From a virus: DNA of 36,824 nt. A program made the position numbers and the translations under genes. The stretch lies in IMG/VR virus record IMGVR_UViG_3300017917_002056, positions 1-36,824 of that record; one strand, given 5' to 3'. Shown here one piece after another: positions 1,529-32,568 of this stretch. How positions within the stretch are numbered: the stretch's first letter is position 1; each line of letters starts with the position of its first letter. The notes under the pieces are model-generated. The model was not told the DNA's origin. It saw only the letters and a program-made list of their open reading frames with translations, and did not search any database.

Positions 1529-4500
1529 TTATAATCTTCCTACGACCACTTCTATGACTCCTTCAACCCCGTCGAAGTCTTCAAGTGCTTTGCCGATAAT
1601 AGTTCCAATCTTTGGGTCATTGGTTGGACGAGCATAACCTCCTCCAGCACTGACCATCATATCACCTTTGCGTATCTTACCCCTAACTTTACATGGTACA
1701 CGACCTTGTAAGGCAATGGCAACAACAAACTCTCCTGGATGATTATTTCCCATAACATAGGCTGGGTTAGTTGAAACAACACCTGCTACACGACGTGTTT
1801 CATCTTCAGCAAGAGTGACTTCAAATTCTCCACCAAACTCTAAGACAGTTCCAGGGTCATATCTCTTATCTGCAACATAATTTTCTGCCAAATCTTTATA
1901 GTTTGCGTAATTTGCGTTACCAGTAAATAAAGTTCCAGTTATAGTTCCACTGGACATAACTACTAAACCGCTTCCACTAGCACCTGATGCAATACCATAA
2001 GTTTGACCGCCGGACACTATGTTCGTAGCACTCGTAGCAGTACCAACAAATCCAGTACCACTGCCAGTGGCAGTGAAAGTAAGACCTTTAATACTTCCGT
2101 TACTGGTTCTTCTAACAATAGAACTATTAGATGTTTCAGTATCTGCTAGAATAGAAATTGTTCCAGAAGTGCTACCATCAAAACTTATGTCAGAACCTGC
2201 GTTTCTGATAGCTATGTCGCCACCACCAACTGTTGGGGTTCCGCTTAGTGCGTTAGGTAATTTACCACCAGTTTTAGCAAATGTAGCAGTACCGTTAAAT
2301 GTAGCACCAGTATTAATTGTTGTTGGAGCAGTAGTACTACCGTATATTCCTTCGCCATAATGATTGGTACCATGGAAACTTGTTGCCCAAACTTTTCTAA
2401 AACTGAGTGAACCACTTTCACCAATATCAAGTCTATCGTGTTCTGATGGTGATATAATAGCATATTGGCTAGAAGTTAACAATGCAGGAGACACGGTTAT
2501 TTTGCCTCTCATAGTGCCGCCATTTTTCAATAATGCACCACTTGATGCAGATCCGTCGCTCCTCGCTGCCAACCCTGCAGAACTTCCGTTTGGAAACAAC
2601 CCGCCTAAAATATCGTCATTGATTAATTGTCCTACGGCAGTAGTAGTTAATCCAACAATTTGTTTTAATGCAGTTGAATCAAGTTCTGCCACGTTACCAT
2701 AACTGGTATTATTAGGATCTCCGTTCCAATAACCTAATACCTTTTTGTTTTGAATCCATTGAATTCTGTCAAGTCTAACCCCGTCACCAGTACTTGTTGA
2801 TTGTTTGAGTTGAACAAAACCATTGTTCACAGCAAATTCAGCAATTTGGAAACTGGCAACACCAAAATCACTTGCTATGGCGTTGGTAACAGAATCTTTG
2901 ACACCAGCTTTATTTAGAGCAAGTTTGGATTGTAAAATCCCAGCACCAGATTTAACTTTATCGTTGTCAATAGCTCCTGATTTGATAGATATAGTGATGT
3001 TATTACTACTTCTAGTAACAGTTACATCACTAGATGCAGCGACACTGGCATTCACCATAGAGCCACCTGATCCTGCAGGCACCTCACCAGTAAAGACTAG
3101 GAAATCACCACTTCCTGGAATTCCTGTTATTGTTACATCAGAAATTTCTTTAATGTAATTTTTATTATTGAAATAGTTTAATGTAACTAAGTCAGTTGTT
3201 GCTGACGGGTCAGCACTGCCAGTAACCCTGTTGCCATTAAGATTAATATCTTTTTGTATGGCAACTATGACCGCACTTGCAGTGGCCCCACTACCGCCTT
3301 GTAATTGTACACTAAATGCAGCCGGAGTAATTGGACTTCCACCTGAAAGAGTTATACTTGGAGCACCAGTGTATCCACAGCCAGCATTTACAATTACAAT
3401 TTGTTTGACTTTCTGAGTGCTTCCAGTGCCTTCCATAATTGCGTAGCCAGTTGCTCTAATGCCTCCAACGATCTGCGGAACACTAAAAGTCACTGTTGGT
3501 GTTGATTGGTATCCTGTGCCTTGTGATAACACGTTTACACTTGCAACACTACCACCAATTATCACTGTTGGTGAACTAGTATAACCATAACCTGGTGTAT
3601 CAATAACAATAGAAGCGACACCTCTAGGCCCTGTTCCAGCTTCTAATACTGCTCTGCCTGTCGCTCCCGTACCACTAGTAGAATAGAAATTCACCACAGG
3701 AGGAATAGTATAGTTTGCACCATTTGCTGTGATAGTTACTGAGTTTACATAATATCTAGTGGTAGTATCATTTAAAGTAAATCCAGACCAGCCAGTTCTA
3801 ACTCCTCCAGTAGCAATGGATTGGTCAACATAGATCTTATTAGCGCCATCTAAAGATAATGTTGGCGATTTCAAATTAATAATCTTATTTGAAGTTAGAT
3901 CGATTCCACCTCGATTAGTGAATACACCCCCAGCATCAGTGACATCAAAAATCATAGTAAAGGCTTGTACGTTTGTTCTAACACCTGTAGTTGTTATGGC
4001 GTAGTTTCCATCAAAATCAATAGTTCCGCCAGCAAAAACATTGTCAACATATTTTCTGTTTACAATACCAGCTCCATTAGAGTCAACGCTGTTAATGGTA
4101 TTTTCAATACTATTGAACCCTAGATCCATGTCACCTTTCATAACACTGGTACCATCTAAGGTCATCAATCCTTTGTTTGGTGTTAAAGTGTTGTCAACAG
4201 TAAATCGTCCACCAATAATATTGTTGATATAAGTCTTAATAGCTTTTTGTGTTGGCACAATATTATCGCTATTATCGTCCATTTTCTGATCACCAGAGAA
4301 AGCACGAACTGTTTCACCAGTTAAGAATGTTAAAGAACTAACAGCACTCAAACCAATCTTGGCAGCAATAGTAACACTACCGTCACCCTGATTGACGTTG
4401 AAATAACTACCAACACGGAAATTACCATCTTGGTCAGTAGACACATGGAAAACTCGACCAGTTCCAATTTCTCTTACAATAGCACTTGAACTTGGTGTAT

Positions 4501-7500
4501 TTGTAGGAGGTCCATAAACGTTGTTTGGATAGTTAGAGTCGTCATAACCGCCTGCACCAACTTGTAAGAAATCGTGACCAGTGGCTCGTACAGTTGAGAA
4601 CGTAGTAGTAACCCCAATGACGTCACCTGCAATATGTCTAGAATCTAAATTAGTGTTCAAGTCAAATAGATAATTTGAACCTGGACCAGAAACAGTAATT
4701 GCAGTTCCTGCAGGAATACCTGCTGTTAATAAAGCACTAATTTTTACTCTATAACCAATAGTATTTTGTGATTCATCAAACAATTGGGTAACGGTTCTAA
4801 TAATAGTATCTTCAGTTACCCCATTAATTCCTTTAATAGGAATTCCTGGTCCTGTAATTATGCCACCATATTGTAAACTTGTTGCCGTTGGCGGGAACAC
4901 TAAAGATTGCAAAGTATCTTTTATCTGAGGTTCTTGTATAATGTGATTTCCAGTAGTTCCCAATGATATAATGGAAGTTATTTGTCCCATTAATTGCCCA
5001 ATTCTAATTCCAGAACCACTTTCAGACACTAACGTATTATTAATATTTTGAGCTACGTATGTAGAACCAGCAGGATCTTGATAACTTCTAGGAATACCTA
5101 AATCTCTTGTAGGTAGTGAAGTTATACCATCTTCTAGTGCTTCTGCAATAATTTCAAAAAGAACTTCTAATCTATTGTCATCAACTCCAACCGTACCTGG
5201 TGTACCACTAGTATTTTGTATCAGCGGATTACCTGCTTGCTTTGTCACTGCATTTTCTAAAACTATCAATTTACTAATAGTTTTTGCATGTCTTATAGCA
5301 GATACAGTCTGTAATTTTTGTGTTTCTAATACAACGTCTGAACTGGCACTACCATCATAATATGCTTCTGCGGCAATCCTTGTCTTAACGTTTCCGCCAT
5401 ATTCTAAATCATATGCGATAGCATCTACTATCAGTCCAACGTCTCTTCGACACTTAGCTTGATTATAAGTAAATCCACTACTATAGGTAGTGTTTAGATA
5501 AGTTATAGTGCCATTTTTAATAGTTGTTAAATTATTAAGTATGGTTACTTTACTGTTATTGGATGTGCCATAATTTGCACCGTTGGTATAGGATGGCTGA
5601 ATTGGGGTTGGTGCTGATCCAACACCAAATTCTGCAATGGTATTAACAACAGTAAGTAGGTTGCTAACATTTGATCTTGAAGATGAAGATCCTGCAGGCA
5701 AACTGGTGTTTTGATTTTCAGTATTTCCAGTGGTTTTAACGATTGCTTGTGCCTGTAATACACTATTAACAACATCTTTCAAATAATTGAAGGCAATTAT
5801 TGTAACATCAACTTGACCTTGTATTAGAGTAACAGCACCATTCCAGTAAGCACTGCCTGCCATTATACTTTGTGTATTACCACCGTAAAGTGTATCATAA
5901 GCAACTGCGTCAAGAATATATTCAACATCTCGAATACATAGTTGAGGATCATATGAATAACCGCTGAATGCTGATATAATATAGTTTGAAACAGCAGTAA
6001 TGACAGTTGGTTTATTATTGGCTATAGTATTGAATGCAGTAACTAATGTTGATTCAACTGATGATATTGAAGGATATACAGCACTTGGTAATGTGTTTAA
6101 GTTACCGGCAGTAATAACACCTTTTATTATTTCTATATTTCCTGATGCAGTATTGGCTTCTGTAGAAGTACCAAAATTACCAGTTCTATTTTGAGTTGAG
6201 TTATTTCCACTAGAACGTGCGACCACTGAACCTTGAATTACTTGACCTACTACAACTTGTAGTCTTGAATAGGCATTCAATGTTGCCAATGCTTGACCAC
6301 TACCTAATTGACTAGTAGTTCCAACAAAATATGCTTCAGCAGCTCTAACACTGGCACTATTTCCTCCGTATAATATATCATAGCAAAGAGCGTCAACAAT
6401 ATAACCTACGTCTCGACTACACTTAGTTTGATTGTAGTTTGGAGGTGGATTATTAACATTAACAAACGCTATGATTTCAGATTGAATAAATGCTCTATTT
6501 TGCTGTAACTGATCTTTTGCGTTTATTCTTTCCTGTGTAGCTCCAATTGGTGTTGGATATGTTAGGGTTGGTGCTGTACCGCCATCTAAAAGATTTATTA
6601 CAGTATCAAAACTTTCAGTAACTCTAGAAAGAGCAGTAGCGTCGGCGTTAACCAGTGTTTGAGTCTGTGTTTTCGCTTTTAATATACCTTGACGAGTCTG
6701 TATCTTCTGTTCATTTAGTAGATACGACGAGTTCGCTCTTTGATAAGCCAGTCCAGCAGTTACAGAATTAAAGTTTGTTCCAAATGCAGTATCATAAGAT
6801 GCGGCATCTAAAATATATCCAATATCTCTTTCACACTTAGTTTGAATAGCAGGAGTATATGTATATCCAACAAAGTTTTGATTTACAAAAGCAATAAACT
6901 CATTTTGTAAAAATTCTGAGTTAGCTCTTAATAAGTTTACACTATTTAAAACTCCAGTATCAAGGTTTAAAGGATTGGTATAAACTAGTTCAGTGGTGTT
7001 TGTACCACTGTTAATAATTCCAGTTACTAGACTAAATCTATTAGTAATTTCTGTAATAACTGTTGAATTGGTAATTAATGCCAGTGCTAGATCTCTAGCC
7101 TTATTAATACCTGCAATGGTTGGTATTTTTTGATTTGCAATAACATTAGAAGAATAACTTCTTAGATAAGCTAGTCCAGCAGTAATAGATCTATAATTTG
7201 AGCCAAATATAACGTCGTCTAAAACTGAATTTAATATTATTTCAATATCTCTACGACATTTCTCTTCATCATAATTAAATCCTGGGAACTGATTATTCAA
7301 ATATGCAATTACATCTTCTTGTATAAATTGCTTATTGTTGATCAGCTGATCTACACCATTTAAATTAGAACCATTGTAAGGTAATGCCAATTGAGTAGGT
7401 ACAGCACCTGTATACTGATTTACTACGTACTGAGCAACTTGTGTTGCATAGTTAATAGCATCTACAGTTATTCCTTTTTGTTGCGCTAGAACTAAGGCAG

Positions 7501-10500
7501 CACTTGGATTACCTTGCTGATAGTAACTAGCACCTGCTCCACGACTTCTAACATTACCACCGTAAGTTAAATCATAAACTACAGCATCAATGATATATCC
7601 AACGTCTCTATAGCAAATGTCTTTGTTATATATGAAATTAGGATAGATAGTAGATAGGAAATCAATAGTTTCTTGTTGAATAAATGTTTTGTTAGCAACT
7701 AGTTTAGCAACAGCATTAGCATTGAATCCTACTAATGGAGCCGCAGATTCTGTTAGTTGATAAGTTTCTACGGTGGTGCCGCCATTAGCTGTCTTTCCTA
7801 AGATTCTGTAGATACTTGGGTCATAATTACTTGCCGCAAATCTTAAAGCAGAGCTATTAATAATTGGGGGATTATTTGTTATCTGACTAACTGAAATTGT
7901 TTTTAATTGGTAAAGATTAAATGGTAGAGCCTGTGGCTTATTAAATGTATCAGTTACGGTTTTAAGTTTTACATTTAATGAAGGATCAATACTTAGATTC
8001 CAATAACTATTTGTAAATGTGAATACTGTGTTACCTGGTATTGATGCAGGCAAGTTCTTATCCAATGTCAAATCCCAATATCCATCAACTCTAGTAAATT
8101 GAGCTGATGCAACTTGGTTTATCATTTGATAGGTTAATGCTCTGTCTATGTTTAATGCCCAACGTTCTGTTGCAGGATCATAAGTAGGAGTTCCCGTTAC
8201 GTTATATCTAGCATAATCTTGTTCTTCTAAGTTTGTGTCCAATAACTGGAAAGTCCAACCTGCTTTAGGTGCCCAAGGGCTAGTTGGGCTTGTTACAATA
8301 GAATTATCAATTGGTGAAGTTACATTAGCAATATATAATGTAGTTGCTCCTGGAGCGTTGTCTGGCTCGCCTAATCTTGGACTTGCTTGAAATTTTATTT
8401 CTCGAGCAGTGACACCAGTAACAGTATAAACACTATCGTCATTTTCGTCGATAATTGGATTTGTAGCATTTAGCTTGAACTGCATCCTTAGTACAGCAGG
8501 ACGTTCTAACTTATAAACTTTTAGAATGTTTTGACCAATAGCATTATCACTTATAGTATCAAATCTAACAGTACCAGTGATATTTCTTTCACTAGGATTT
8601 CCTTTAACAGTATATTCGGTACTTGGTGCGTCAGCTACAAAATTAGAAATTGCTCTTGCTGGTAAATCAGCAAATGTATATGTTCCTAAATCAGTAGCAT
8701 ATAGTAGACTGTTAGTTGAATTTAGTGTAAAGGTTGTTTTGTCTATAACAGTAATAGTATAGGATCTTCCATCAATGTCAGTACTTACATTTGTTGTACT
8801 AGGAGGAATTGGTTTTAGTTCTACTCCTCTAATTGATGTCATTTGCACAGAGTCGCCTGTCTTAAATGGATGACTATACGCTGTTGTAACTACTAAAGGA
8901 CCTGCAACTAGGGTGCCTCCTGGTAATCTAGCACGAGCAACATTTTTAATAATAATTTCGTGCTTATCTAATTTAAATGTTGAATTTCTTAGAGGTACAG
9001 TGTCACAGCCACCAACAATAATATTAACAGCACCAACGTTACCGTCAGCTAACGGACTATCAATATAAGGAACTACGTAGTTTACTGGTGTAGTTCTAAT
9101 TTTGCCAATTTGAATAGCCTCATTAGGATCGTTGCCTTCTGATTCTAATCCTATTAGACCATAACAACTTGATCCTCCAACAGATCGAATCTGACCACCA
9201 GCTCTTGCAACGTAACCAATACGACAATAGTAGGTAAATTGAGAAACTGCTTCACAGACACCATTATTATCTGCAACAATACCATAACCTAAATCATTAA
9301 CCATAGTAAAGTCGTTGGACAACATAGATCTATTACCAGCTGTCTCAATAACTACCTGTGTTCCTGAAGGCAAGAATCCTGCTGGTAAGAAAGTATCGTC
9401 AACTTCAATTGGTGTAGTGGAACTCAATGTTAATGTAGCAGTGCCATTTGAATCTGGCGTTGTACTATCAATAATAACATATTTCTTTTTAGAAATGTAA
9501 AAAGTGTTAGGAATTTCTGGTCTTCTTACTAATCCTGTTACTCTTACCTTAGTTCCTTGAGCACCTTGTGTTCCAGTAAAAGGATCAGTATAACTTGAAT
9601 CTAAAACATAGCAAACTTGGTTTCCTGCCATACCGTCAATAAGTTGACCGCCACCACCTTCACCTGCAAATGTGGCACAAACTTGACCGTAAGGAGAACG
9701 AGTTAGAATTTGACCACTTGGATCAAATGCCATTGTAAATCCCTTGCTCCCAAGGAAAGTCATATTACGTAACTGCATAGCATCGTTGACCAACAATGAA
9801 TCGCAGTGTTCATTATCTAATAAGAATTCTATTACAGTGCCGTCTGGTATTGATTGTGCTAATGTTTTCAAATCACCGTTGTCATCAACAATATCCATTG
9901 TGTATGTTCCAGGAGCTACGTTAGTTTCTGGATCTACTTCTTTATATGTAATAGTTCTAATACTACCGACTCTGTAAACATTAGGCTCCCCGCCAGTGGA
10001 ACCATATATAAATCTCATACCAGATTTAGGAGGATATGCCGCATTCCTAATTTCTAATGTGGTACTACCAGTAACGTTGGTAACACCAACTGACAATGCT
10101 AATTGATGATAATAGTGCGTATTGTACCAAAAATCTGCTCCTAAAGTTCTATCTCCACGAACAAATTTAATACTTTGATTGTCTGATAAGACTGGGCCTT
10201 CTTTTGGTTTAACCAAGGTTCTTCTAAATTCGTCACCTTTAATAGCTACGTTTGGCGGTACAATGATTGGAAAGTATTCAAAATAAACACCAGATTCTAC
10301 CATGATGGTAATTTCTGGTTTTGGTACGAAGAACCCCCTAAAACCAAAGTCAACTCTTGACAATACGCTATAAGGGCCATCTTTTTTGTTAGCCAATGCA
10401 ATACTAATTGTTCCGCCAGGTGGAACTTCAGGATTTACCCAAGTAACTAATGATTTTAAATTTAACTCAAATAAGTTATCGTTTATTTTATTAACTCTAA

Positions 10501-11740
10501 AAATTCCATTTAAGTTTCTTGTGTCTGCGTTGTTTGTACCTAAAATAGCGCCACTTACTTGTACGTAGTCTCCATCTACAAATCCATGATTTTGTAAACT
10601 TACACGAACTCTAGTTCTTGGACTTGTAATAGCATTAGCAGGTGGAGGAGCAATCCATCTAGTAATAGCCGATGGCAATACCTGATATGGAGTGTTTTGT
10701 AATTGAACACGATCCATGATTTTTTTGGCAAATCTACAAGCCTGTCTTAAAGTTTTAAAGGCTTTGCTCCAACTGCGACCAATTTCTTCTTCAGGATATC
10801 CGTATGCAGGATTTGGTGCATCGTTAGTAAAATCCCACATGTCATCATTACCTTTAGTGCTGACATATAGATTACTAGGACTACTGTAAGATTTAGCGTC
10901 AACATAACCTTTTGTAGCGGCGCGATAGTCTTCTTCTACAAAGGACTCGCCCAAAGGATTTAATGTAATGTCCTCATAGTCACCGGGGTGATCGTTTAGG
11001 ATCAAAGGCCCAGTCATAACGCCAGCACCACGGTTTAATGCACCAGTTTGCGGATCGTAAGTTTCAGTTCCTTGTAAAGATATCTTAGTGTCAACATAAT
11101 CTTTACGTGTTGCATGAGCTGGAAGAACTGCTTGTACATTTAATGCAACTGTTTTATCGGTAACACCGTCTGCACCTTTAATAGTTAAAACTCTATCTCC
11201 AATATTAACGTTTCCGTTATTTGGCGTTGGTTGTATCCTAAAATTTTGTCTCATCCAACTACCGTTTGGATTAGGAACGGTAGACAATAGGTCAATGTTG
11301 TCCCTATTTAAAAAATTCTGATAGACCCACTTTCTTGTCACAGCATCTTGATCAGCGGCAGGATCACCAACATTATTAAGTTTAAAATTGGCAGCATTTA
11401 AAGAATTAGACAACGTTGGGTTGGGGTCTAGGCTAATTTGTATCCCAGACAAACTTAATATAATTTTTGATGGATCAGAAGTGGTATCAATGGCCAATCC
11501 ATTATCAACTATAAGATCTCTACTAACTACGTTATTACCTAAAGTATCTAATCCTAAAACTGTATTAGGTCGCAATGGTTTTACAACATCTACTAGATTA
11601 TTAAATGTTAATCCAGACTCTAAACCTTGGCTAGCATATAATTCTTGGAAATTAGAATTTACTTTTGAGAACGCATCACGTATGCTGTCGCCAGTTCCAT
11701 CGTTGCCTGTTAAACCAATATTGATATCTTTTCTTGCCAT
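1529..11740 (-). CDS. Giant tail-fibre / virion structural protein (3403 aa)
   Basis: One uninterrupted reading frame. I chose the ATG at 11740 (MARKDINIG) because GGAG lies 6 nt upstream; the frame extends slightly further only through a TTG. Visible architecture: an N-terminal docking module (residues ~1-40) shared with the neighbouring 91-residue protein; several fibre 'TKxYVD'-type motifs (ATRKDYVD, AATKGYVD, NRKYVD, NKIYVD); a beta-rich region ~300-1300; six Cys-containing repeats between ~1350 and 2135; Gly-Tyr-Thr-x-x-Pro beta repeats near 2660-2815; and a C-terminal module (~3280-3403; DLAENYVAD, VAGVVSTNPAYVMG, GRVPCKVRGKIRKGD) often seen at the end of marine phage fibres. The protein is expected on the virion surface for host recognition. 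Its size is extreme even for fibres. The structural call is secure; domain names are family knowledge. Confidence 0.9.
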   Translation of the reverse strand: MARKDINIGLTGNDGTGDSIRDAFSKVNSNFQELYASQGLESGLTFNNLVDVVKPLRPNTVLGLDTLGNNVVSRDLIVDNGLAIDTTSDPSKIILSLSGIQISLDPNPTLSNSLNAANFKLNNVGDPAADQDAVTRKWVYQNFLNRDNIDLLSTVPNPNGSWMRQNFRIQPTPNNGNVNIGDRVLTIKGADGVTDKTVALNVQAVLPAHATRKDYVDTKISLQGTETYDPQTGALNRGAGVMTGPLILNDHPGDYEDITLNPLGESFVEEDYRAATKGYVDAKSYSSPSNLYVSTKGNDDMWDFTNDAPNPAYGYPEEEIGRSWSKAFKTLRQACRFAKKIMDRVQLQNTPYQVLPSAITRWIAPPPANAITSPRTRVRVSLQNHGFVDGDYVQVSGAILGTNNADTRNLNGIFRVNKINDNLFELNLKSLVTWVNPEVPPGGTISIALANKKDGPYSVLSRVDFGFRGFFVPKPEITIMVESGVYFEYFPIIVPPNVAIKGDEFRRTLVKPKEGPVLSDNQSIKFVRGDRTLGADFWYNTHYYHQLALSVGVTNVTGSTTLEIRNAAYPPKSGMRFIYGSTGGEPNVYRVGSIRTITYKEVDPETNVAPGTYTMDIVDDNGDLKTLAQSIPDGTVIEFLLDNEHCDSLLVNDAMQLRNMTFLGSKGFTMAFDPSGQILTRSPYGQVCATFAGEGGGGQLIDGMAGNQVCYVLDSSYTDPFTGTQGAQGTKVRVTGLVRRPEIPNTFYISKKKYVIIDSTTPDSNGTATLTLSSTTPIEVDDTFLPAGFLPSGTQVVIETAGNRSMLSNDFTMVNDLGYGIVADNNGVCEAVSQFTYYCRIGYVARAGGQIRSVGGSSCYGLIGLESEGNDPNEAIQIGKIRTTPVNYVVPYIDSPLADGNVGAVNIIVGGCDTVPLRNSTFKLDKHEIIIKNVARARLPGGTLVAGPLVVTTAYSHPFKTGDSVQMTSIRGVELKPIPPSTTNVSTDIDGRSYTITVIDKTTFTLNSTNSLLYATDLGTYTFADLPARAISNFVADAPSTEYTVKGNPSERNITGTVRFDTISDNAIGQNILKVYKLERPAVLRMQFKLNATNPIIDENDDSVYTVTGVTAREIKFQASPRLGEPDNAPGATTLYIANVTSPIDNSIVTSPTSPWAPKAGWTFQLLDTNLEEQDYARYNVTGTPTYDPATERWALNIDRALTYQMINQVASAQFTRVDGYWDLTLDKNLPASIPGNTVFTFTNSYWNLSIDPSLNVKLKTVTDTFNKPQALPFNLYQLKTISVSQITNNPPIINSSALRFAASNYDPSIYRILGKTANGGTTVETYQLTESAAPLVGFNANAVAKLVANKTFIQQETIDFLSTIYPNFIYNKDICYRDVGYIIDAVVYDLTYGGNVRSRGAGASYYQQGNPSAALVLAQQKGITVDAINYATQVAQYVVNQYTGAVPTQLALPYNGSNLNGVDQLINNKQFIQEDVIAYLNNQFPGFNYDEEKCRRDIEIILNSVLDDVIFGSNYRSITAGLAYLRSYSSNVIANQKIPTIAGINKARDLALALITNSTVITEITNRFSLVTGIINSGTNTTELVYTNPLNLDTGVLNSVNLLRANSEFLQNEFIAFVNQNFVGYTYTPAIQTKCERDIGYILDAASYDTAFGTNFNSVTAGLAYQRANSSYLLNEQKIQTRQGILKAKTQTQTLVNADATALSRVTESFDTVINLLDGGTAPTLTYPTPIGATQERINAKDQLQQNRAFIQSEIIAFVNVNNPPPNYNQTKCSRDVGYIVDALCYDILYGGNSASVRAAEAYFVGTTSQLGSGQALATLNAYSRLQVVVGQVIQGSVVARSSGNNSTQNRTGNFGTSTEANTASGNIEIIKGVITAGNLNTLPSAVYPSISSVESTLVTAFNTIANNKPTVITAVSNYIISAFSGYSYDPQLCIRDVEYILDAVAYDTLYGGNTQSIMAGSAYWNGAVTLIQGQVDVTIIAFNYLKDVVNSVLQAQAIVKTTGNTENQNTSLPAGSSSSRSNVSNLLTVVNTIAEFGVGSAPTPIQPSYTNGANYGTSNNSKVTILNNLTTIKNGTITYLNTTYSSGFTYNQAKCRRDVGLIVDAIAYDLEYGGNVKTRIAAEAYYDGSASSDVVLETQKLQTVSAIRHAKTISKLIVLENAVTKQAGNPLIQNTSGTPGTVGVDDNRLEVLFEIIAEALEDGITSLPTRDLGIPRSYQDPAGSTYVAQNINNTLVSESGSGIRIGQLMGQITSIISLGTTGNHIIQEPQIKDTLQSLVFPPTATSLQYGGIITGPGIPIKGINGVTEDTIIRTVTQLFDESQNTIGYRVKISALLTAGIPAGTAITVSGPGSNYLFDLNTNLDSRHIAGDVIGVTTTFSTVRATGHDFLQVGAGGYDDSNYPNNVYGPPTNTPSSSAIVREIGTGRVFHVSTDQDGNFRVGSYFNVNQGDGSVTIAAKIGLSAVSSLTFLTGETVRAFSGDQKMDDNSDNIVPTQKAIKTYINNIIGGRFTVDNTLTPNKGLMTLDGTSVMKGDMDLGFNSIENTINSVDSNGAGIVNRKYVDNVFAGGTIDFDGNYAITTTGVRTNVQAFTMIFDVTDAGGVFTNRGGIDLTSNKIINLKSPTLSLDGANKIYVDQSIATGGVRTGWSGFTLNDTTTRYYVNSVTITANGANYTIPPVVNFYSTSGTGATGRAVLEAGTGPRGVASIVIDTPGYGYTSSPTVIIGGSVASVNVLSQGTGYQSTPTVTFSVPQIVGGIRATGYAIMEGTGSTQKVKQIVIVNAGCGYTGAPSITLSGGSPITPAAFSVQLQGGSGATASAVIVAIQKDINLNGNRVTGSADPSATTDLVTLNYFNNKNYIKEISDVTITGIPGSGDFLVFTGEVPAGSGGSMVNASVAASSDVTVTRSSNNITISIKSGAIDNDKVKSGAGILQSKLALNKAGVKDSVTNAIASDFGVASFQIAEFAVNNGFVQLKQSTSTGDGVRLDRIQWIQNKKVLGYWNGDPNNTSYGNVAELDSTALKQIVGLTTTAVGQLINDDILGGLFPNGSSAGLAARSDGSASSGALLKNGGTMRGKITVSPALLTSSQYAIISPSEHDRLDIGESGSLSFRKVWATSFHGTNHYGEGIYGSTTAPTTINTGATFNGTATFAKTGGKLPNALSGTPTVGGGDIAIRNAGSDISFDGSTSGTISILADTETSNSSIVRRTSNGSIKGLTFTATGSGTGFVGTATSATNIVSGGQTYGIASGASGSGLVVMSSGTITGTLFTGNANYANYKDLAENYVADKRYDPGTVLEFGGEFEVTLAEDETRRVAGVVSTNPAYVMGNNHPGEFVVAIALQGRVPCKVRGKIRKGDMMVSAGGGYARPTNDPKIGTIIGKALEDFDGVEGVIEVVVGRL
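3300..3760 (-). repeat. GYTxxP beta-repeat region of the giant fibre
   Basis: Repeated units of the form G(Y/C)GYT or TGYQS plus xxPxV, followed by a Gly/Ala-rich strand such as GATGRAV. Examples include PGYGYTSSPTV, QGTGYQSTPTV and AGCGYTGAPSI, at about residues 2660-2815. This kind of short beta-repeat is typical of fibre shafts. No function beyond structure is inferred. Confidence 0.7.
5340..7695 (-). repeat. Six tandem Cys-containing protein repeats inside the giant fibre
   Basis: Six copies, spaced ~350-500 nt apart, with cores near 7500-7690, 7140-7330, 6720-6910, 6300-6490, 5830-6000 and 5340-5510. The shared pattern is (F/I)(I/L)xxExIx(F/Y)(L/V)N, then Y, one conserved Cys, RD(V/I)(G/E), I(I/L/V)(D/N)A, YD, (Y/F)G(G/T)N and AGxAY. 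Each copy carries a single Cys directly before the RD pair. Copies are diverged from each other, so the expansion is old. Similar repeats are known from very large structural proteins of marine myoviruses; their function is not established. Confidence 0.85.
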
Positions 11741-11755
11741 TATTAACTCCAAAAA

Positions 11756-11822: not shown

Positions 11823-12110
11823 ATGTTCATAACAGCTATTAAAGAAAAACAAATGTACTCGCGCAGAAGTAAACTGGGAAAGGAACACCAGTATGCACGA
11901 TTTAATACGATTTTAGTTTTTAGATGTGATAGTTGCGATAAAGAATTCCAAAGGTATAGGAAAAATATCGACCCAAAAAGGATCAGTAACAACTATTTTC
12001 ACGTTTGCTCAAGTTGCGACTCAAAAAGATTCGCCCAAAAAAAGGGCGTTGAAAAACGATTGATATGGGATATGCCTGCTAGTAGTACTCTACCAATTGG
12101 TAGATATTAA
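11823..12110 (+). CDS. Small zinc-ribbon protein, plus strand
   Basis: A 95-residue basic protein from the ATG at 11823. An in-frame ATG at 11853 is an alternative start, and neither has a strong ribosome site. Two Cys pairs are visible: FRCDSCDKEF and, ~28 residues later, HVCSSCDSKRF. Together they form a likely zinc ribbon. The N-terminus (YSRRSKLGKEHQYAR) and the region between the pairs are rich in Lys/Arg, suggesting nucleic-acid binding. The frame is open further upstream only because it runs antisense to the fibre gene. Its stop codon overlaps the sufA stop codon on the opposite strand. It is one of only two plus-strand genes in the window. Function is unknown; a role related to HNH nucleases or to regulation is possible but not shown. 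Confidence 0.75.
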   Translation: MFITAIKEKQMYSRRSKLGKEHQYARFNTILVFRCDSCDKEFQRYRKNIDPKRISNNYFHVCSSCDSKRFAQKKGVEKRLIWDMPASSTLPIGRY

Positions 12111-12412
12111 AAACTAATGCTTTCCCCGCAACCACAGGTATTTTTTACTTGCGGATTGTCAATTCTTAAGGTAGAGTTAAAAGCGGAGGTTTCCAAGTCA
12201 ATTGTTGCGTCTTGCACATATAGATAAGCTAACTTGTCTACTAGAATCCTAGCACCGTTGTCCAATACTTCAACATCGTTGCCTACAGATTCACTCGCTA
12301 AAGACCAGTCATACTTGTAACCGTTACAACCACTATTTTTGACTGATAACTTGAATCCAAACTCACTCTTTGAATTGATGTGTTTTGCGGCATCTTCAGT
12401 GATTTTAATCAT
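12107..12412 (-). CDS. sufA: SufA-like A-type Fe-S carrier protein
   Basis: A 101-residue protein of the HesB/IscA/SufA family, which receives Fe-S clusters from the SufBCD scaffold and passes them to target proteins. The three cluster-binding cysteines are present: C29 in SGCNGYKY, and C93 and C95 in the C-terminal CGCG motif. Length is close to the usual 105-125 residues. The start ATG at 12412 has AGGA just upstream and overlaps the end of sufT by 8 nt. It is the last gene of the suf operon. Its TAA overlaps the TAA of the convergent zinc-ribbon gene. Ser-Gly-Cys-Asn in place of the commoner Ser-Gly-Cys-Ser/Gly is a minor difference. All ligands are intact, so it is probably functional. 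ErpA/IscA assignment within the family is not decidable here; SufA is chosen from the operon. Confidence 0.92.
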   Translation of the reverse strand: MIKITEDAAKHINSKSEFGFKLSVKNSGCNGYKYDWSLASESVGNDVEVLDNGARILVDKLAYLYVQDATIDLETSAFNSTLRIDNPQVKNTCGCGESISF

Positions 12413-12713
12413 AAATTCCTAACTCCAATTTAGCTTCATCAGACATCATTTCTTTAGTCCAGGGCGGATCCCAGACAATGTCTATAACAACATCCTTGAC
12501 TTTAGGTATCTCTTTTATAGCGTCTTTAACTTCTCCTGGTAAAGTTTCAGCAGCCGGACAAAAAGCACTAGTTAAAGTCATTTGAACCGTGACCTTGTCA
12601 TTAACTACGCATATATCATATACCAATCCTAAGTCGTAAATATTTACATGAATTTCAGGATCATAAACTGTGCGTATTGCTTCAATTATCTGTTCTTTTG
12701 TCAGCAATTTCAT
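12405..12713 (-). CDS. sufT: SufT-like DUF59/MIP18-family Fe-S maturation protein
   Basis: A 102-residue protein with the complete DUF59 signature: DPEI at residues 18-21, then NIYDLGLVYDI, MTLTSAFCPAAE with the conserved reactive Cys52, and the C-terminal VWDPPW-TKEMMSDEAKLELG. Members in suf operons (SufT) help mature Fe-S proteins under high demand; the eukaryotic homologue is CIA2/MIP18. AAGGA lies just before the ATG. The gene overlaps sufE by 20 nt and sufA by 8 nt, implying translational coupling. Presence of SufT at this position is typical of alphaproteobacterial and Gram-positive-like suf clusters rather than E. coli. No residue expected to be essential is missing. Confidence 0.93.
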   Translation of the reverse strand: MKLLTKEQIIEAIRTVYDPEIHVNIYDLGLVYDICVVNDKVTVQMTLTSAFCPAAETLPGEVKDAIKEIPKVKDVVIDIVWDPPWTKEMMSDEAKLELGIYD

Positions 12714-13101
12714 AAATCCTTGTAATTAAATTTCCAACTCCATTTTGTCTTCCTGGAGTAAGTAGACCTGATATTCCGAGACTATTTAAAATTTTTGGAT
12801 CAGTAGACAATATTTCTTGCTTAGTTTTACCATTAAAGATATCTAATATAATAGCCACTAGACCTCTAACTATTTTAGCTTCACTGTATGCTTTAAATTC
12901 TAAGGTTTTGTCGCCAAAATCTCTAATCCAAAGTTTACTCTGACATCCTAAAACTAGATATTGCGGAATTTGATAAGTTTCACTTAGTTCTGATAGATTA
13001 TCGCCATAATCAATGATATATTCGTACTTGCTCATGTCGTCATCAAACAACTCAATTTCTTCTTTAATCTTAGATATTTGATCCTTAATTGAGTTTTTCA
13101 T
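12682..13101 (-). CDS. sufE: SufE sulfur-acceptor protein
   Basis: A 139-residue protein, matching E. coli SufE (138). SufE accepts persulfide sulfur from SufS and hands it to SufB. The reactive cysteine is C53 in LGCQSKLW, corresponding to C51 of E. coli. The downstream segments SEAKIVRGLVAIIL and the C-terminal LTPGRQNGVGNLITRI fit the family. I chose the ATG at 13101 because it gives the usual length; an in-frame ATG at 13119 would add six residues, and neither has a strong ribosome site. The gene overlaps the end of sufS by 17 nt, so translation is probably coupled to its enzymatic partner. Confidence 0.92.
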   Translation of the reverse strand: MKNSIKDQISKIKEEIELFDDDMSKYEYIIDYGDNLSELSETYQIPQYLVLGCQSKLWIRDFGDKTLEFKAYSEAKIVRGLVAIILDIFNGKTKQEILSTDPKILNSLGISGLLTPGRQNGVGNLITRIYEIADKRTDN

Positions 13102-14290
13102 AACAATTGATAAGACCATCTTTTAATTTTTCAATATCATCTTTAGTATTATAACAAGCCCAACTAGCTCTAACAACACCGTTAATAAACTTTTCTTCTA
13201 CAATAGGCTGGGCGCACAAGAATCCACTTCTAACAGCGATATTCTGTGCTTCTAATAGTTGTGCCACATCACTTGGATGACAATTTTTTATATTGAAACT
13301 GATTAATCCTGCCTTATAATAGTTTGGATGAAATTGATCAATAAAATCTAGTTCATTTAACATCATTTGTATATTGGCGTTGATTAATTTATTATGAACT
13401 TGTAAATCTTCAATGTCATAACTCTTGAACCAATCAATAGCCGTTCCCATAGCAATGACTCCACCAATATTTGGTGTCCCAGCTTCTAGTTTCCAAGGCA
13501 ATTGATTTACTCTTATCGTATCCCAGCTCACACTACTAATCATGTCTCCGCCCCAAAGTAGTGGTTCTAATCTTTCTAGGTATTTTTGTTTTCCATATAA
13601 TACACCAACACCAGTAGGTCCATAAAGTTTATGAGCACTAAACGCAATGAAGTCAGCATCAAGGTCTTGAACATTAATTGATTCTTTGGCGATACTTTGT
13701 GCGGCATCGAGCACTGTTATGCCTTCAAATTCTTTGACTAGCTTAAACAAATCCTTTATAGGTTGTACATTGCCAATAGTATTATTAACATGAGCAATAC
13801 TAAACAATATTTTTCCATTACACTCTTCAAGAACTTCTTCTAAATGTGCTAGGTCTAATGATCCATCTTTGATTACATTTATTTTTTGAAAGTTGATATC
13901 ATACTTTTCTGCTACGTTAATCCAAGGCAGCAGATTGGCATGATGCTCACTTTCTGGAACGATAATGGTGTCATTAGCACTCCATTTAGAGCAAAGACCC
14001 AACGCTATCAAATTAATACTGTGAGTAGTTCCACTGGTAAAAACTATTTCACTATCTCTCTTTGCATTGATAAGGTTTTTAACCTTACTTCTTACACCTT
14101 CATATTCTTCAGTGGCACGTTCAGCTAACCTATGAATGCCTCTATGTATATTGGCTTTATAGTTTTTGTGATAATCAATCAAAGCATCTACAACCACATC
14201 TGGACAAAAAGTTGTGGCTGCGTTATCAAAGTATGTTACGTTTGGGAGACTAAAATCTTTTTTAATCTCTGAAAAAGTCTTTGATTTCAT
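13085..14290 (-). CDS. sufS: SufS cysteine desulfurase (group II, PLP-dependent)
   Basis: A 401-residue enzyme that removes sulfur from L-cysteine as a persulfide, giving alanine. Key residues are present: YFDNAATT near residue 20, His116 in the ESEHHANLLPW segment, the PLP lysine K221 in SAHKLYGPTG, and the catalytic cysteine C359 in RSGFLCAQP. The short active-site loop and the RSGxxCAQP motif mark it as SufS-type (group II) rather than IscS. Length is normal (E. coli 406). The start ATG at 14290 lies 29 nt inside the end of sufD with no clear ribosome site, so it probably relies on coupled translation. Its SufE partner is encoded immediately downstream. No sign of decay. Confidence 0.95.
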   Translation of the reverse strand: MKSKTFSEIKKDFSLPNVTYFDNAATTFCPDVVVDALIDYHKNYKANIHRGIHRLAERATEEYEGVRSKVKNLINAKRDSEIVFTSGTTHSINLIALGLCSKWSANDTIIVPESEHHANLLPWINVAEKYDINFQKINVIKDGSLDLAHLEEVLEECNGKILFSIAHVNNTIGNVQPIKDLFKLVKEFEGITVLDAAQSIAKESINVQDLDADFIAFSAHKLYGPTGVGVLYGKQKYLERLEPLLWGGDMISSVSWDTIRVNQLPWKLEAGTPNIGGVIAMGTAIDWFKSYDIEDLQVHNKLINANIQMMLNELDFIDQFHPNYYKAGLISFNIKNCHPSDVAQLLEAQNIAVRSGFLCAQPIVEEKFINGVVRASWACYNTKDDIEKLKDGLINCYEKLN

Positions 14291-15086
14291 CTTGAATATC
14301 TGTATGTGGTATTAGGTTGATAATTCTATCTTGATGTATTTCAGATAGAAGTTTTTTGGCGTTTTCTAAACTTATGCCCCTGCTTTGTAGGTACCAAAGA
14401 CTTTCAGCATCTATTTGTCCAACTGTGCAATTATGCCTAGCTTCAACATCACCACATTCGATCATCAGTTGTGGGATACTGAATGCTTGTCCTGTTTCGT
14501 CTTTGATAATACTAGCATTTGAAACTTGCGTCAAACTACCGTTGGTGTCTTTATCAATTTTTACGTAACCTTGGAAAACTGTTCTTCCTTTATTGCTTGA
14601 AGAACAGTTTACTAATTGTTGACTGATAACGTTAGGACCAGCATGATATACTTTAGCAATAATTTCACTGCTACCATTCATATCATTTTCTGATAATCCG
14701 TATATGTTTATTTCAGAATTTTCGTAAGCTTCGCATTCAAATATATGCTTGTTAAGTTTGCCACCTTTGACAAAAATTCCAATATTTAAAATACTGTTTG
14801 GTTCACAGGCAACATTGTATAAAAATACTTGTTGAGTTTGTTCACTGCCTTCGCATATGATGTATAAATCCAACTTACTGGCTTCTTTGCCTAGTATCTG
14901 CAAATTTTTACATAACAAATCATTTTCTGTTGGACTTAGCCTAAGCACCATTACATCGTCAGTGCCTTCTTTAATTTGTAAACAGTTTGCATCTATCATT
15001 TTAAACTGCTTGCCAAAATATTGAGAAGGGCTGTACGCCCAATCAGGGTCTGCTTTGTCTACTTTAAGAAAACTTTCGATAGCCAT
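14262..15086 (-). CDS. sufD: SufD scaffold subunit, short and divergent
   Basis: A 274-residue SufD-type protein, much shorter than E. coli SufD (423). The C-terminal core is recognisable: GRTVFQGYVKI near residue 168, IPQLMIECGDVEARHN, and TVGQIDAESLWYLQSRGI near residues 221-238. The histidine at residue 218 corresponds to the functionally critical His360 of E. coli SufD at the SufB-SufD interface. The missing length lies in the N-terminal region. I chose the ATG at 15086 (AAGGG upstream) rather than the TTG at 15092. The gene overlaps sufC by 23 nt and sufS by 29 nt. SufD pairs with SufB and SufC2 to form the SufBC2D scaffold. It is the most diverged member of the operon, but position and core motifs make the call firm. 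Confidence 0.9.
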   Translation of the reverse strand: MAIESFLKVDKADPDWAYSPSQYFGKQFKMIDANCLQIKEGTDDVMVLRLSPTENDLLCKNLQILGKEASKLDLYIICEGSEQTQQVFLYNVACEPNSILNIGIFVKGGKLNKHIFECEAYENSEINIYGLSENDMNGSSEIIAKVYHAGPNVISQQLVNCSSSNKGRTVFQGYVKIDKDTNGSLTQVSNASIIKDETGQAFSIPQLMIECGDVEARHNCTVGQIDAESLWYLQSRGISLENAKKLLSEIHQDRIINLIPHTDIQDEIKDFFRD

Positions 15087-15789
15087 TTTCAATGATCCCT
15101 TTAATAATTCTTCTGTCGCCAGACTTTACGATTTTACCGTCAACAATAATATGTACATGAGTTGGCTTTATTGTTTCAAGGATCGTTGGTTGATGTGTAA
15201 TAATTAAAGCCGCTTTTCCTTTTTTTGATAAAAACGATTTGATATCAGAAGATATAGTTTTAACAGCGTCTACATCAAGTCCACTATCAATTTCATCTAA
15301 TATCAGTAACGATGGATCCAATAAATTCATCTGTAGCACTTCATTCTTTTTCTTTTCACCACCACTAGCACCGTAGTTAAAGTCTCTCTTCAGCCATTCT
15401 GAACCAAGATCAAATTTTTGTACAAGTTTTTTATAATCAGAAATTATATCTGAACTACTACGTTTGTCTTGTCTAGCTTTTAAGATATCCCTAGACAACT
15501 GCAAATTGCTTATACCATCAATTTCTGGAGGGTCTTGAAAGGTCATAAAAATTCCCATCCTACTCCTAACGTCAGGCGTTAACGTATTTAGAATCTTTCT
15601 CTTGAAATTCATTTTTCCATTAGTAATAGCATATTCTGGATTACCAGCAATTACATTAGCCAATGAGCTTTTACCTGCGCCATTTGGACCCATGACAGCA
15701 TGAATTTCGCCTTCCTTAATTTCTAAATCAATGCCAGATAATATCTCATTATCCTCAACATTGACATGTAAGTTTGTTATTTTTAGCAT
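15064..15789 (-). CDS. sufC: SufC ABC-type ATPase of the SufBCD scaffold
   Basis: A 241-residue ABC ATPase that drives conformational change of the SufBC2D complex in the cytoplasm. Motifs in order: Walker A GPNGAGKSS at 34-42 (K40), Q-loop FQDPPEI near 84-90, the SufC-type signature ASGGEKKK at 141-148, Walker B LLILDEIDSGLD at 161-172, and the switch His199 in ITHQ. The Gly-Glu-Lys-Lys-Lys-Asn signature and DEIDSGLD are diagnostic of SufC among ABC proteins. The start ATG shares one base with the sufB stop (TAATG). Length equals the family norm (~248). No transmembrane partner is encoded nearby, which agrees with a soluble SufC rather than a transporter. Confidence 0.96.
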   Translation of the reverse strand: MLKITNLHVNVEDNEILSGIDLEIKEGEIHAVMGPNGAGKSSLANVIAGNPEYAITNGKMNFKRKILNTLTPDVRSRMGIFMTFQDPPEIDGISNLQLSRDILKARQDKRSSSDIISDYKKLVQKFDLGSEWLKRDFNYGASGGEKKKNEVLQMNLLDPSLLILDEIDSGLDVDAVKTISSDIKSFLSKKGKAALIITHQPTILETIKPTHVHIIVDGKIVKSGDRRIIKGIIENGYRKFS

Positions 15790-17213
15790 TATCCTATTGA
15801 ACCTTCAATCTTAATATTCATTAATTTTTGCGCCTCAGCCGCAAATTCTAGAGGTAGTGTCTTGAACACTTCTCTACAAAAACCATTGACTATAGTTGTT
15901 GCCGCTTGCTCTGTATCCATGCCGCGTTGCCCTAGATAAAACAATTGACGCTCGCTAATTCTTCCAGTTGATGCTTCATGCTCAACTATTGAATCATTAT
16001 TCTTAACTTCAACATAAGGTATAGTGTTTGCCACTCCTTCGTCACCAATAATCATACTATCACATTGAGTAAAATTTCTAGCACCTATAGCTCCTGGCAT
16101 TATGTTTACTAGACCCCTATAAGTGTTAACACTTTGATCTAAACTTATACCTTTACTGATTATAGTGCTACTAGTGTTATTACCGATGTGTATCATTTTA
16201 GTTCCAGTGTCTGCTTGTTGACGACCTTTAGTCAACGCTACACTGTAAAATTCACCTTTTGAGTTGTCTCCTTTAAGTATACAACTTGGATATTTCCAAG
16301 TTATTGCAGATCCAGTTTCAACTTGCGTCCAGCTTATTTTGCTGTTGTCCCCTTTACATATTCCTCTTTTAGTAACAAAATTATAAATGCCACCTTTGCC
16401 ATCCTTATCCCCAGGATACCAATTTTGAACAGTTGAATATTTTATTTCTGCATCTTTCAATGCTACCAATTCAACTACTGCGGCATGAAGTTGATTTTCA
16501 TCACGCTTGGGTGCAGTGCAACCTTCTAGGTAACTTACGTAACTTCCTTCATCTGCAATGATCAATGTACGTTCAAATTGTCCAGTATTAGATTCATTTA
16601 TTCTAAAGTATGTGCTTAATTCCAACGGACACCTAACTCCCTTTGGAATATAAACAAAACTACCGTCAGTAAAAACAGCACTATTGAGGCAAGAATAAAA
16701 ATTATCTCTTTGTGGAACCACTGAACCCAAATACTCTTTTACTAGATCTGGATATTTTTTTACAGCTTCGCTGATGCTACAAAAAATAATTCCTTGTTCT
16801 TCTAATTGCTTCTTATGTGTGGTTCCTAAACTTTCACTGTCTAAAACAGCGTCCACTGCCACACCTGCAAGCCACTTTTGTTCTTCTAAAGGTATACCTA
16901 ATTTTTCAAAATCTTTGAGAATGTCAGGATCAACTTCACTCAAATCTTTTGGTCGATTTTTTGGTCTGCTGAAATAACTTATTTCATCAAAGTCAACTCT
17001 TTCGTAATTTAAAGTTGACCAAGAAGGCTCCGACATTTCTAGCCAGGATTTATATGCTTTGAGTCTCCATTCTAATAACCATTCTGGTTCATCTTTCAGC
17101 GAGGAAATCTTTCGAATGACCTCTTGATTTAACCCTTTGGATATTGTTTCAGACTCGAAATCAAATGCCCAACCATATTTGTATTCTTCTTTTTCTATTT
17201 TATTATGGTCCAT
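15789..17213 (-). CDS. sufB: SufB scaffold subunit of the Fe-S assembly complex
   Basis: A 474-residue SufB, highly conserved along its length: YKYGW near the start, [69 protein letters not shown] and [13 protein letters not shown]384 (FTQCDSM) aligns with essential Cys405 of E. coli SufB, and E411-H412-E413 with the E432-H433-E434 segment, giving a constant offset of 21. SufB is where the cluster is built. The start at 17213 is fixed by the family N-terminus (the YKYGW segment must be included). There is no ribosome site: the -10 box of a consensus promoter ends only seven bases upstream, so the transcript is probably leaderless. It is the first gene of the seven-gene suf operon. Confidence 0.97.
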
Positions 17214-17220
17214 AGTGATT

Positions 17221-17249
17221 ATTATAATTTAATTTTTGTTGTATGTCAA
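17221..17249 (-). promoter_or_regulatory. Consensus sigma70-type promoter of the suf operon
   Basis: TTGACA (17244-17249), 17 nt spacer, TATAAT (17221-17226). Both hexamers match the bacterial consensus exactly. Only seven bases separate the -10 from the sufB ATG, so the expected transcription start falls on or next to the start codon. No IscR- or SufR-like gene is seen in the window. Confidence 0.9.
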
Positions 17250-17312: not shown

Positions 17313-17612
17313 ATGATTAACTTTTTAAAATCATTATTAGGCTACCCAACAGAAGCTGAAAAAGCTGCCGCCAAGCAAGCCGCGCCAGAAGCACCGTACA
17401 AGGTTGAAGCGCCAGTTGCTAAGGTTGAAGAGGCCAAATCTGTAGCAGTTCCTGCTATTAAGGCAACTAAAACTAAGGCGCCTGCAAAGCCAAAAGCACC
17501 AGCTAAGGCTAAAGCACCAGCAAAAGCACCTGCAAAGCCAAAAGCACCAGCTAAGGCCAAAGCACCTGCAAAGGCTCCGGCTAAGCCAAGAGCGCCAAAG
17601 AAGACCAAATAA
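17313..17612 (+). CDS. Histone H1-like Lys/Ala/Pro-rich basic protein
   Basis: A 99-residue protein. A short N-terminal segment (MINFLKSLLGYPTEAEKAAAK) could be an amphipathic or protein-binding helix. It is followed by an acidic/valine-rich linker, and residues ~50-99 consist almost entirely of KAPAK-type units ending in PRAPKKTK. Such tails resemble eukaryotic histone H1 and bacterial AlgP/HctB-like proteins and bind DNA without sequence specificity. AAGGAG lies ~10 nt before the ATG. It is transcribed away from the suf operon from the same intergenic region and ends at a strong bidirectional terminator. Likely roles are DNA compaction or charge neutralisation, inferred from composition only. 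The antisense frame that is also open is a by-product of the repetitive codons. Confidence 0.8.
   Translation: MINFLKSLLGYPTEAEKAAAKQAAPEAPYKVEAPVAKVEEAKSVAVPAIKATKTKAPAKPKAPAKAKAPAKAPAKPKAPAKAKAPAKAPAKPRAPKKTK
17481..17576 (+). repeat. Two tandem 48-bp repeats inside the histone-like gene
   Basis: The 48-bp unit beginning CCTGCAAAGCCAAAAGCACC at 17481 recurs at 17529 with a few substitutions, and a third partial, more diverged unit follows at 17577. It encodes a 16-residue Lys/Ala/Pro unit. Such repeats are prone to slippage, so tail length may vary between related phages. Confidence 0.85.
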
Positions 17613-17646
17613 TTGAAAAGAATTAATTGATCTTCTTGATATAAGA

Positions 17647-17666
17647 AAAGCCCCTTATGGGGCTTT
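17647..17666. terminator. Bidirectional rho-independent terminator
   Basis: AAAGCCCC-ttat-GGGGCTTT forms an eight-base-pair GC-rich stem flanked by A-rich and T-rich tracts. It lies 34 nt after the histone-like gene and one base before the uvsE stop, so it can end transcription from both convergent genes. Confidence 0.9.
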
Positions 17667-17667
17667 C

Positions 17668-18681
17668 TTATTGAGCGTAATCATAAAGTGCTCGACTGGC
17701 TAAATTCTTAGCCTTGCTTTCGCACATTATATCAAAATTATCACGGAATGTGAGTGCCCAATCGTTTACAGATTGGTTCCAGTAAAAGTTACTGTGTGCT
17801 CTTAGTTTTGCTTTCTTGTACCCATTTTCTAAAAGAATTTCTAAATTTGGGCTATCAATAACATTATGATTTTTGAGCACATCTTCTCTACTGACGCTGT
17901 AATGAATAACAGGACGAACACCACGCCAGCTATCAATTACACGTTTAACACGATCATCATTAGGATCAATATACTCCCCAGTCTTTACCCAATGATGATG
18001 AACATCTAACACCAAAGCGAGATCGTTTGCCAGTTCGAGACTTGCTTCGATTCCCCAGCTGATTTCGTCGTTTTCGATAGTAATACAATTTCTCGCCTCT
18101 GGTGAGAGACGCCCAAGTGCGGCTTTGATGCCGGCGGGACCGGCTCTACCTGAGATGTGGACATTGATTTTAAAGTCCTGGAACGATGAGCCATAGCCCA
18201 TCCATCTAACCATATCTGCATGATATTCAAACTCCTCTATACTACGCTTAACAATATCTGGATTGTCACTTGCCAACACAGTAAATTGACCAGGATGAAA
18301 ACTGAGACGAACGTTGCGAGCTCTAGCAAGATCCCCCACCTCTCTAAAATGTTTTTGGGCGTATGCTTGCACATCAGCTTGACGCCAAAACCAGCACCAA
18401 GTAGGCTCAGTATAGACAGGAAGGATATCACTGCTAAGGCGTACCATACGTAACTCATCTTCTAAATTACCTACCCTTTCTACCAACAGTTTAGTTGATT
18501 GAATATTTTGTTTTACCAAAGACCAAAGTTTTTCAACAGCAACATCTTTATCTTGACGGTTGAGCCAAGCCACTGTAGTAGCACCAGTGTTGTATTTCTT
18601 ACAATCATCTTTTGGGCCAATGCCGTCTACTTGATGAGGGAAATCAATCCACTTACAAGCAAAACCAATGCGTTTAATCAT
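17668..18681 (-). CDS. uvsE: UV-damage endonuclease (UvsE/UVDE family)
   Basis: A 337-residue TIM-barrel endonuclease that nicks DNA 5' of UV photoproducts, starting an alternative excision repair. Family motifs: N-terminal IKRIGFACKW, LRMVRLSSDILP, RLSFHPGQFTVLAS, KINVHISGRAGPAG, ITIENDE, LVLDVHHHW and VIHYSVSRE; these contain the His, Glu and Asp metal ligands of the family. Length is normal. I chose the ATG at 18681; a TTG four codons upstream is less likely. No clear ribosome site is seen. It has its own promoter with a perfect palindrome around the -10 box. In T4 the photoproduct repair enzyme is the unrelated DenV, so this is a functional substitute. Confidence 0.93.
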   Translation of the reverse strand: MIKRIGFACKWIDFPHQVDGIGPKDDCKKYNTGATTVAWLNRQDKDVAVEKLWSLVKQNIQSTKLLVERVGNLEDELRMVRLSSDILPVYTEPTWCWFWRQADVQAYAQKHFREVGDLARARNVRLSFHPGQFTVLASDNPDIVKRSIEEFEYHADMVRWMGYGSSFQDFKINVHISGRAGPAGIKAALGRLSPEARNCITIENDEISWGIEASLELANDLALVLDVHHHWVKTGEYIDPNDDRVKRVIDSWRGVRPVIHYSVSREDVLKNHNVIDSPNLEILLENGYKKAKLRAHSNFYWNQSVNDWALTFRDNFDIMCESKAKNLASRALYDYAQ

Positions 18682-18699: not shown

Positions 18700-18729
18700 A
18701 GGACATAATACATTGTAGCATTATGTCCT
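18700..18729. promoter_or_regulatory. Perfect 10-bp inverted repeat around the uvsE -10 box (operator-like)
   Basis: AGGACATAAT (18700-18709), 10-nt centre, ATTATGTCCT (18720-18729). The centre contains the promoter -10 element, so a dimeric protein bound here would cover it. A hairpin in the 5' end of the RNA is unlikely to include both arms because transcription should start near 18705. Confidence 0.75.
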
Positions 18730-18740
18730 TGTATTGTCAA
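18712..18740 (-). promoter_or_regulatory. Sigma70-type promoter of uvsE
   Basis: TTGACA (18735-18740), 17 nt spacer, TACAAT (18712-18717). The expected start gives a leader of about 24 nt before the uvsE ATG at 18681. Confidence 0.85.
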
Positions 18741-32528: not shown

Positions 32529-32557
32529 AGTATAACAGGACTAGTCGGTTTTGTCAA
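32529..32557 (-). promoter_or_regulatory. Sigma70-type promoter of the RNA repair operon
   Basis: TTGACA (32552-32557), 17 nt spacer, TATACT (32529-32534). The -35 and spacer lie inside a perfect 12-bp inverted repeat, suggesting repression. The leader to the ATG at 32501 is ~22 nt. Confidence 0.82.
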
Positions 32558-32568
32558 CTAGTCCTGTT
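32534..32568. promoter_or_regulatory. Perfect 12-bp inverted repeat over the RNA repair promoter (operator-like)
   Basis: AACAGGACTAGT (32534-32545) and ACTAGTCCTGTT (32557-32568) with an 11-nt centre. The arms cover the -35 and most of the spacer. As an RNA hairpin it would end AAA-gene transcripts, but no T-run follows on the minus strand, so an operator is preferred. Confidence 0.72.

Follow-up and report, generated by a model that had tools for sequence, protein, structure and literature searches.

Judging from the position of its promoter and the preservation of that position among relatives, the suf operon of this phage very probably yields a leaderless message. The preferred reading, to which we attach a probability of roughly four in five, is that a sigma-70 promoter starts the suf mRNA at or near the sufB AUG, that this message is translated without a leader, and that the downstream genes re-initiate. 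The window, i.e., the whole stretch of DNA analysed, is a 36,824-base virus record (labelled G000), and was identified as phage by its tail fibre, RIIA, RNA ligase and clamp-loader-like families. Its SufB indicated no host, having 66–71% identity to numerous SufBs of bacteria in several phyla, of which many are proteobacterial.

The suf operon, its promoter and the sufB start

The operon occupied the minus strand and began with sufB (15789..17213; 474 aa; Pfam SUFBD_core, E = 3e-78), which is predicted to be leaderless. This was followed by the ATPase gene sufC (15064..15789; Pfam match), with an ATG overlapping the sufB stop codon (TAATG); by sufD (14262..15086; SUFBD_core, E = 5e-36), a short form of 274 aa; by the cysteine desulfurase gene sufS (13085..14290; Aminotran_5, E = 1e-122); by sufE (12682..13101; SufE, E = 5e-34); by a SufT-like gene (12405..12713; Pfam FeS_assembly_P, DUF59); and lastly by a SufA/IscA-like gene for an A-type carrier (12107..12412; Fe-S_biosyn, E = 4e-13). 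Pfam matches were therefore obtained for all five components that define a Suf operon (SufB, SufC, SufD and SufS, plus either SufE or SufU), and the operon encoded the A-type carrier and the DUF59 (FeS_assembly_P) protein besides. The SufD of the window consisted of a SUFBD core with no separate N-terminal domain detected, and was similarly short in four related loci (L003, L004, L030 and L039). Directly downstream of the operon was a tail-fibre-like gene of 3403–3407 aa (1529-11752, minus strand).

The promoter comprised a TTGACA -35 hexamer (17249-17244, minus strand; 6/6), a spacer of 17 nt (17227..17243) and a TATAAT -10 hexamer (17226-17221; 6/6), such that both hexamers were perfect and their spacing optimal. 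A discriminator of 7 nt, AATCACT (17214..17220), contained no Shine-Dalgarno (SD) sequence and ran directly into the sufB ATG (17213-17211), 7 nt after the end of the -10 hexamer. The first-pass annotation had described exactly this arrangement, correctly, and it was far above chance. Two 12/12 promoters occurred in the window, against a mean of 0.065 in simulated sequence of the same dinucleotide composition (at most 1 in 200 runs); the second (36720-36692) lay just 5' of a tRNA-Leu gene. Only 2 of 20,000 random positions had a 12/12 promoter ending 4–8 nt upstream and, when the 37 gene starts scored were examined for the same placement, sufB had 12/12 while the next best had 9/12. Other mRNA promoters of the window that matched at 11/12 or better and preceded a gene were 27–71 nt from the start codon, implying leaders of about 20–64 nt, in agreement with the 20–65 nt given previously.

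The absence of a ribosome site at sufB, also claimed at first pass, was upheld: its SD duplex energy of +1.7 kcal/mol was the weakest among the 37 genes of the window that were scored, many of its neighbours having AAGGA or AGGAG. Nor could the start codon be moved, given homology and the lack of an alternative start in frame. There was no in-frame ATG, GTG or TTG in the window between the last upstream stop and the sufB ATG, while the next in-frame methionine was residue 60, within conserved SufB sequence, which bears out the earlier statement that homology forbids a later start. Three features that characterise a leaderless gene, namely promoter placement, an absent SD and an unambiguous AUG start, were found at sufB. 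Since transcription from sigma-70 promoters starts about 6–8 nt past the -10 hexamer, it is predicted to begin at the A of the ATG (17213) or as far as about 3 nt ahead of it. In the window, L003 and L039 this A was preceded by T, giving the usual pyrimidine-purine step. An unstructured 5' end was considered as a further signature and rejected as not distinctive; the first 60 nt of the sufB message were not notably unstructured (z about -0.2), and included a 7-bp stem pairing GACCAUA near the start with UAUGGUU.

Downstream, the starts of the suf genes overlapped the preceding genes. SD-like sequence was present at sufC, sufD, sufT and sufA, while there was little at sufE and none at sufS. The first-pass annotation had proposed coupled translation beyond sufB, and this is plausible because the reading frames overlap, most of the genes having an SD-like sequence of their own and sufS none. 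Taken in sequence, the proposed mechanism would have host RNA polymerase reading the strong consensus sigma-70 promoter into a sufBCDSE-sufT-sufA mRNA, whose 5' end would coincide with the A of the sufB ATG or precede it by about 3 nt at most; 70S ribosomes would recognise the 5'-terminal AUG of this SD-less message, and the overlapping downstream genes, most with their own SD, would be translated by re-initiation.

Related operons and alternative readings

Three viral contigs carried a homologous suf operon: L003 (94% identity for SufB), L039 (80%) and L004 (73%). Upstream of sufB, L003 had TTGACA-17-TATAAT-7-ATG (12/12), L004 had TTGACT-17-TATAAT-7-ATG (11/12) and L039 had TTGACT-17-TATAAT-5-ATG (11/12); the -10 hexamer was therefore invariant across all four operons, and an SD was absent from sufB in 4/4. 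The spacers had diverged, with 2–10 of 17 positions identical between any two of the four promoters (7–10/17 between the window and its relatives), and the remaining upstream region of L004 aligned poorly, from which it follows that the hexamers, their spacing and the distance to the ATG are the conserved elements. After two further profile searches, the number of sufB operons of the same group with the promoter stood at four, counting the window. At the remaining viral SufB loci no such promoter was present, and most of these loci followed close behind coding-looking sequence. Leaderless initiation is the best-supported reading for sufB; as originally proposed it stands as a prediction, now resting on a geometry kept in four homologous operons despite diverged spacers and with the SD absent throughout.

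Gene content around sufB varied between these operons. In L003 a glutaredoxin gene (3430-3741; Pfam E = 3e-20) was found between sufB and sufC, which the window did not have. An iron/manganese superoxide dismutase gene was present upstream of sufB, on the same strand, in L039 (5390-5938), where the two are adjacent, and in L004 (373-963); the ATG of the L039 copy was preceded by TATAAATA, which resembles a T4 late promoter.

The most durable alternative is that SufB is made mainly from a longer transcript begun upstream of 17249, with ribosomes starting independently of an SD on an AT-rich leader and a minor role for the consensus promoter. Weak or missing SDs at uvsE, rnl, the gene at 24037 and sufS, despite their clear leaders or operon positions, are consistent with this, and the superoxide dismutase genes of L039 and L004 make read-through possible in those contigs. 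However, the 99 nt upstream of sufB in the window sit between divergent genes, being bounded by a gene for a small Lys/Ala/Pro-rich protein with a strong SD (17313..17612, plus strand), and the sole additional promoter-like match close by on the upstream side reached just 9/12. Beyond this divergent gene, separating it from uvsE, was a probable bidirectional terminator hairpin, GAAAAGCCCCTTATGGGGCTTTCTT (17645..17671), with an A-run before and a T-run after; this was read by eye and did not appear in the list produced by the sequence scan of the window. Such a hairpin makes it unlikely that transcription of uvsE runs on into suf. Moreover, what has been conserved is a promoter at a fixed distance from the ATG, and not a leader, and we consider the longer transcript unlikely.

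Two other features of this neighbourhood were observed. A gene similar to the divergent Lys/Ala/Pro-rich gene adjoined suf in L004, L030 and L039. The -10 hexamer of the uvsE promoter (18700-18740, minus strand) overlapped a perfect inverted repeat of 12 bp (AGGACATAATGC...), most of which L003 shares; this repeat is a possible operator.

A second alternative holds that a Fur-type, iron-responsive operator covers the -10 hexamer and start codon, and that promoter and ATG lie close together as a by-product. Fur regulation of suf operons is frequent in hosts, and AATTATAATAATCACTATG matched the Fur consensus at 14/19, among the best on the minus strand of the window, with 13/19 in L003. The same place scored 10/19 in L004, however, and nowhere in the L039 region exceeded 11/19, while, the DNA being AT-rich, 14/19 was reached at 4 sites of the window altogether. 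A Fur-regulated promoter was therefore rejected for want of a conserved box, the match being lost in two of three relatives, and this reading is very improbable. That promoter and ATG lie together by chance and to no effect is scarcely credible: weak promoter-like matches were frequent in this AT-rich DNA (85 found in the window against 63 expected), but 12/12 matches were rare, and four operons have preserved the arrangement although their spacers diverged.

In the related loci L030, L034-L037 and L031/L032 sufB was gone and the operon began with sufC, the other suf genes being kept. These loci retained a promoter, TTGACT-17-TACAAT (near 5220-5300 of each locus), followed after about 43–49 nt by the sufC ATG with an SD-like AAGG; the operons without sufB therefore have a conventional leader. 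L030 and L034 had a further ATG in frame with sufC, 5 nt past the -10 hexamer. Upstream of sufC in L030 and L034-L037, the sequence AAGGTTCAATT looks like a remnant of the sufB 3' end. In the SufS of L030, HLNARP replaced the FLCAQP of L004 and L039, removing the catalytic cysteine motif, and the same locus encoded an IscU/NifU_N protein; its Fe-S pathway looks to be remodelled or decaying.

Leaderless-type promoters at other phage genes

Near-perfect promoters in other members of the phage group (G001-G006) were mostly of two kinds: those with an ordinary leader, usually with an SD, and those with a gap of 5–7 nt between -10 and ATG and no strong SD. The second kind was found at a DnaJ gene in four contigs (gap of 6 nt), at an exonuclease gene of the Rv2179c-like family in two contigs (gaps of 6 and 7 nt), at a gene for a phosphoesterase-like protein in two contigs (gap of 6 nt), and at a small ORF of 79 aa in two contigs (gap of 6 nt). 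The phosphoesterase-like protein had no Pfam match and was named from its motif, having the N-terminus MTxTYITSDLHFGH; starts of the DnaJ, exonuclease and phosphoesterase genes were fixed by N-terminal motifs. In the window, 27 nt separated the -10 hexamer of the phosphoesterase gene from the corresponding ATG, i.e., a leader was present, as against the gap of 6 nt in its relatives; leaders have therefore been gained or lost between relatives. This promoter (32529-32562, minus strand) sat within an inverted repeat, ACAGGACTAG...CTAGTCCTGT. The sufB gene belongs, on this evidence, to a set of leaderless-type genes that recurs across the phage group.

To place these gaps in a wider frame, viral contigs were scanned for TTGACA-17-TATAAT with an ATG anywhere 0–30 nt downstream, a search that is neutral to spacing within that range. 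The sample comprised at least about 119 loci (L317-L435), all with an ATG within 30 nt, and related contigs were removed only where their promoter sequences were identical. Among the loci listed, the distance from -10 to ATG was bimodal, with one peak at 6–7 nt without an SD and another at 19–33 nt with an SD. Considering ORFs of at least 100 aa opened by ATG, the matches listed included 17 at 5–8 nt, 4 at 9–18 nt and 29 at 19–30 nt; the excess of starts at 5–8 nt over those at 9–18 nt was significant among these matches (p ~ 1e-6). Median SD energy was near 0 at 5–8 nt and about -6.4 kcal/mol at 19–30 nt (p ~ 4e-6, matches listed), and a strong SD was confined to the 19–30 nt class among the matches listed for the viral sample. 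AUG was not significantly enriched relative to GUG at leaderless spacing, GUG starts being too few.

In the wider viral set, 27 of the 117 matches listed were at 4–8 nt; because an ATG within 30 nt was required, this value and the corresponding 17/56 are shares of the sampled frame, not of all phage genes. Frequencies were taken from the scans with free spacing of 0–30 nt, and not from a scan fixed at 7 nt. Decoy hexamers returned almost no sites, confirming the rarity of such matches and yielding no baseline for spacing. These results suggest a large leaderless class among environmental phages. The arrangement at sufB had been called unusual, which was not borne out: it recurred at other genes of the group and, among the sampled viral consensus promoters that had an ATG close downstream, at roughly one in five to one in three.

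Known systems and the meaning of the arrangement

The cI promoter of phage lambda depends on an activator, and cI is a repressor gene. Both cI, when transcribed from the sigma-70 promoter PRM, and tetR of Tn1721 resemble what is predicted for sufB in having an mRNA that begins at the AUG, no SD and 70S ribosomes that bind the 5' AUG (PMC4965119, PMC3160421). The present case differs from cI in being a metabolic operon of seven genes with a near-perfect promoter and a 5' end that is predicted. The first description of leaderless initiation in bacteria concerned a gene of lambda (PMC3160421), the study of AR9 remarked that transcripts of phages are 'often leaderless' (PMC5312081), and in E. coli a 5' AUG is enough for 70S binding (PMC4965119). 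In D. radiodurans a -10 motif 6–7 bp ahead of the ORF produces leaderless mRNAs, an arrangement found genome-wide in Deinococcus-Thermus (PMC12340547); the spacing equals that at sufB, but these are bacteria and the description concerns the -10 motif, whereas the full TTGACA/TATAAT pair is found here, in a phage whose genes include SD-led ones. Given these precedents, leaderless phage mRNA is already known as a kind, and what is added, relative to open PMC papers and with no claim to priority, is the suf operon as a member and the bimodal distribution of spacings among environmental phages.

As auxiliary metabolic genes, suf genes have counterparts in Microcystis phage MaAM05 (sufBCDS with iscU) and, as sufE and nifU, in viromes of oxygen-minimum zones (PMC8940887). 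The window differs from both in its sufBCDSE set with SufT-like and SufA-like genes, its dedicated leaderless-type promoter and its short SufD.

Tuning of Fe-S synthesis during infection had also been proposed from the promoter. This was unsupported, the Fur-like match of 14/19 over the -10 hexamer being lost in L004 and L039, and a tuning role specific to Suf is speculation. Reports on E. coli describe an increase of leaderless translation in oxidative stress (PMC9031893) and its regulation by YchF, which responds to stress (PMC8138138). The Suf pathway of Fe-S assembly is itself linked to stress, and L039 and L004 have a superoxide dismutase gene upstream of sufB; together these observations make a link between stress and translation testable, and no more than that. 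It is conceivable, if rather doubtful, that leaderless promoters are a recurrent class (suf, dnaJ, exonuclease and phosphoesterase genes), making up a sizeable share in environmental phages, that keeps translation going when 30S/SD-dependent initiation is limited in the course of infection or oxidative stress; if true, this would fit both Suf and the neighbouring superoxide dismutase of the relatives. Starts of the leaderless type may be misplaced by gene finders for which an SD is obligatory, and the genes of this class provide a testable set with which to ask if phages make use of 70S initiation while the host is being shut off.
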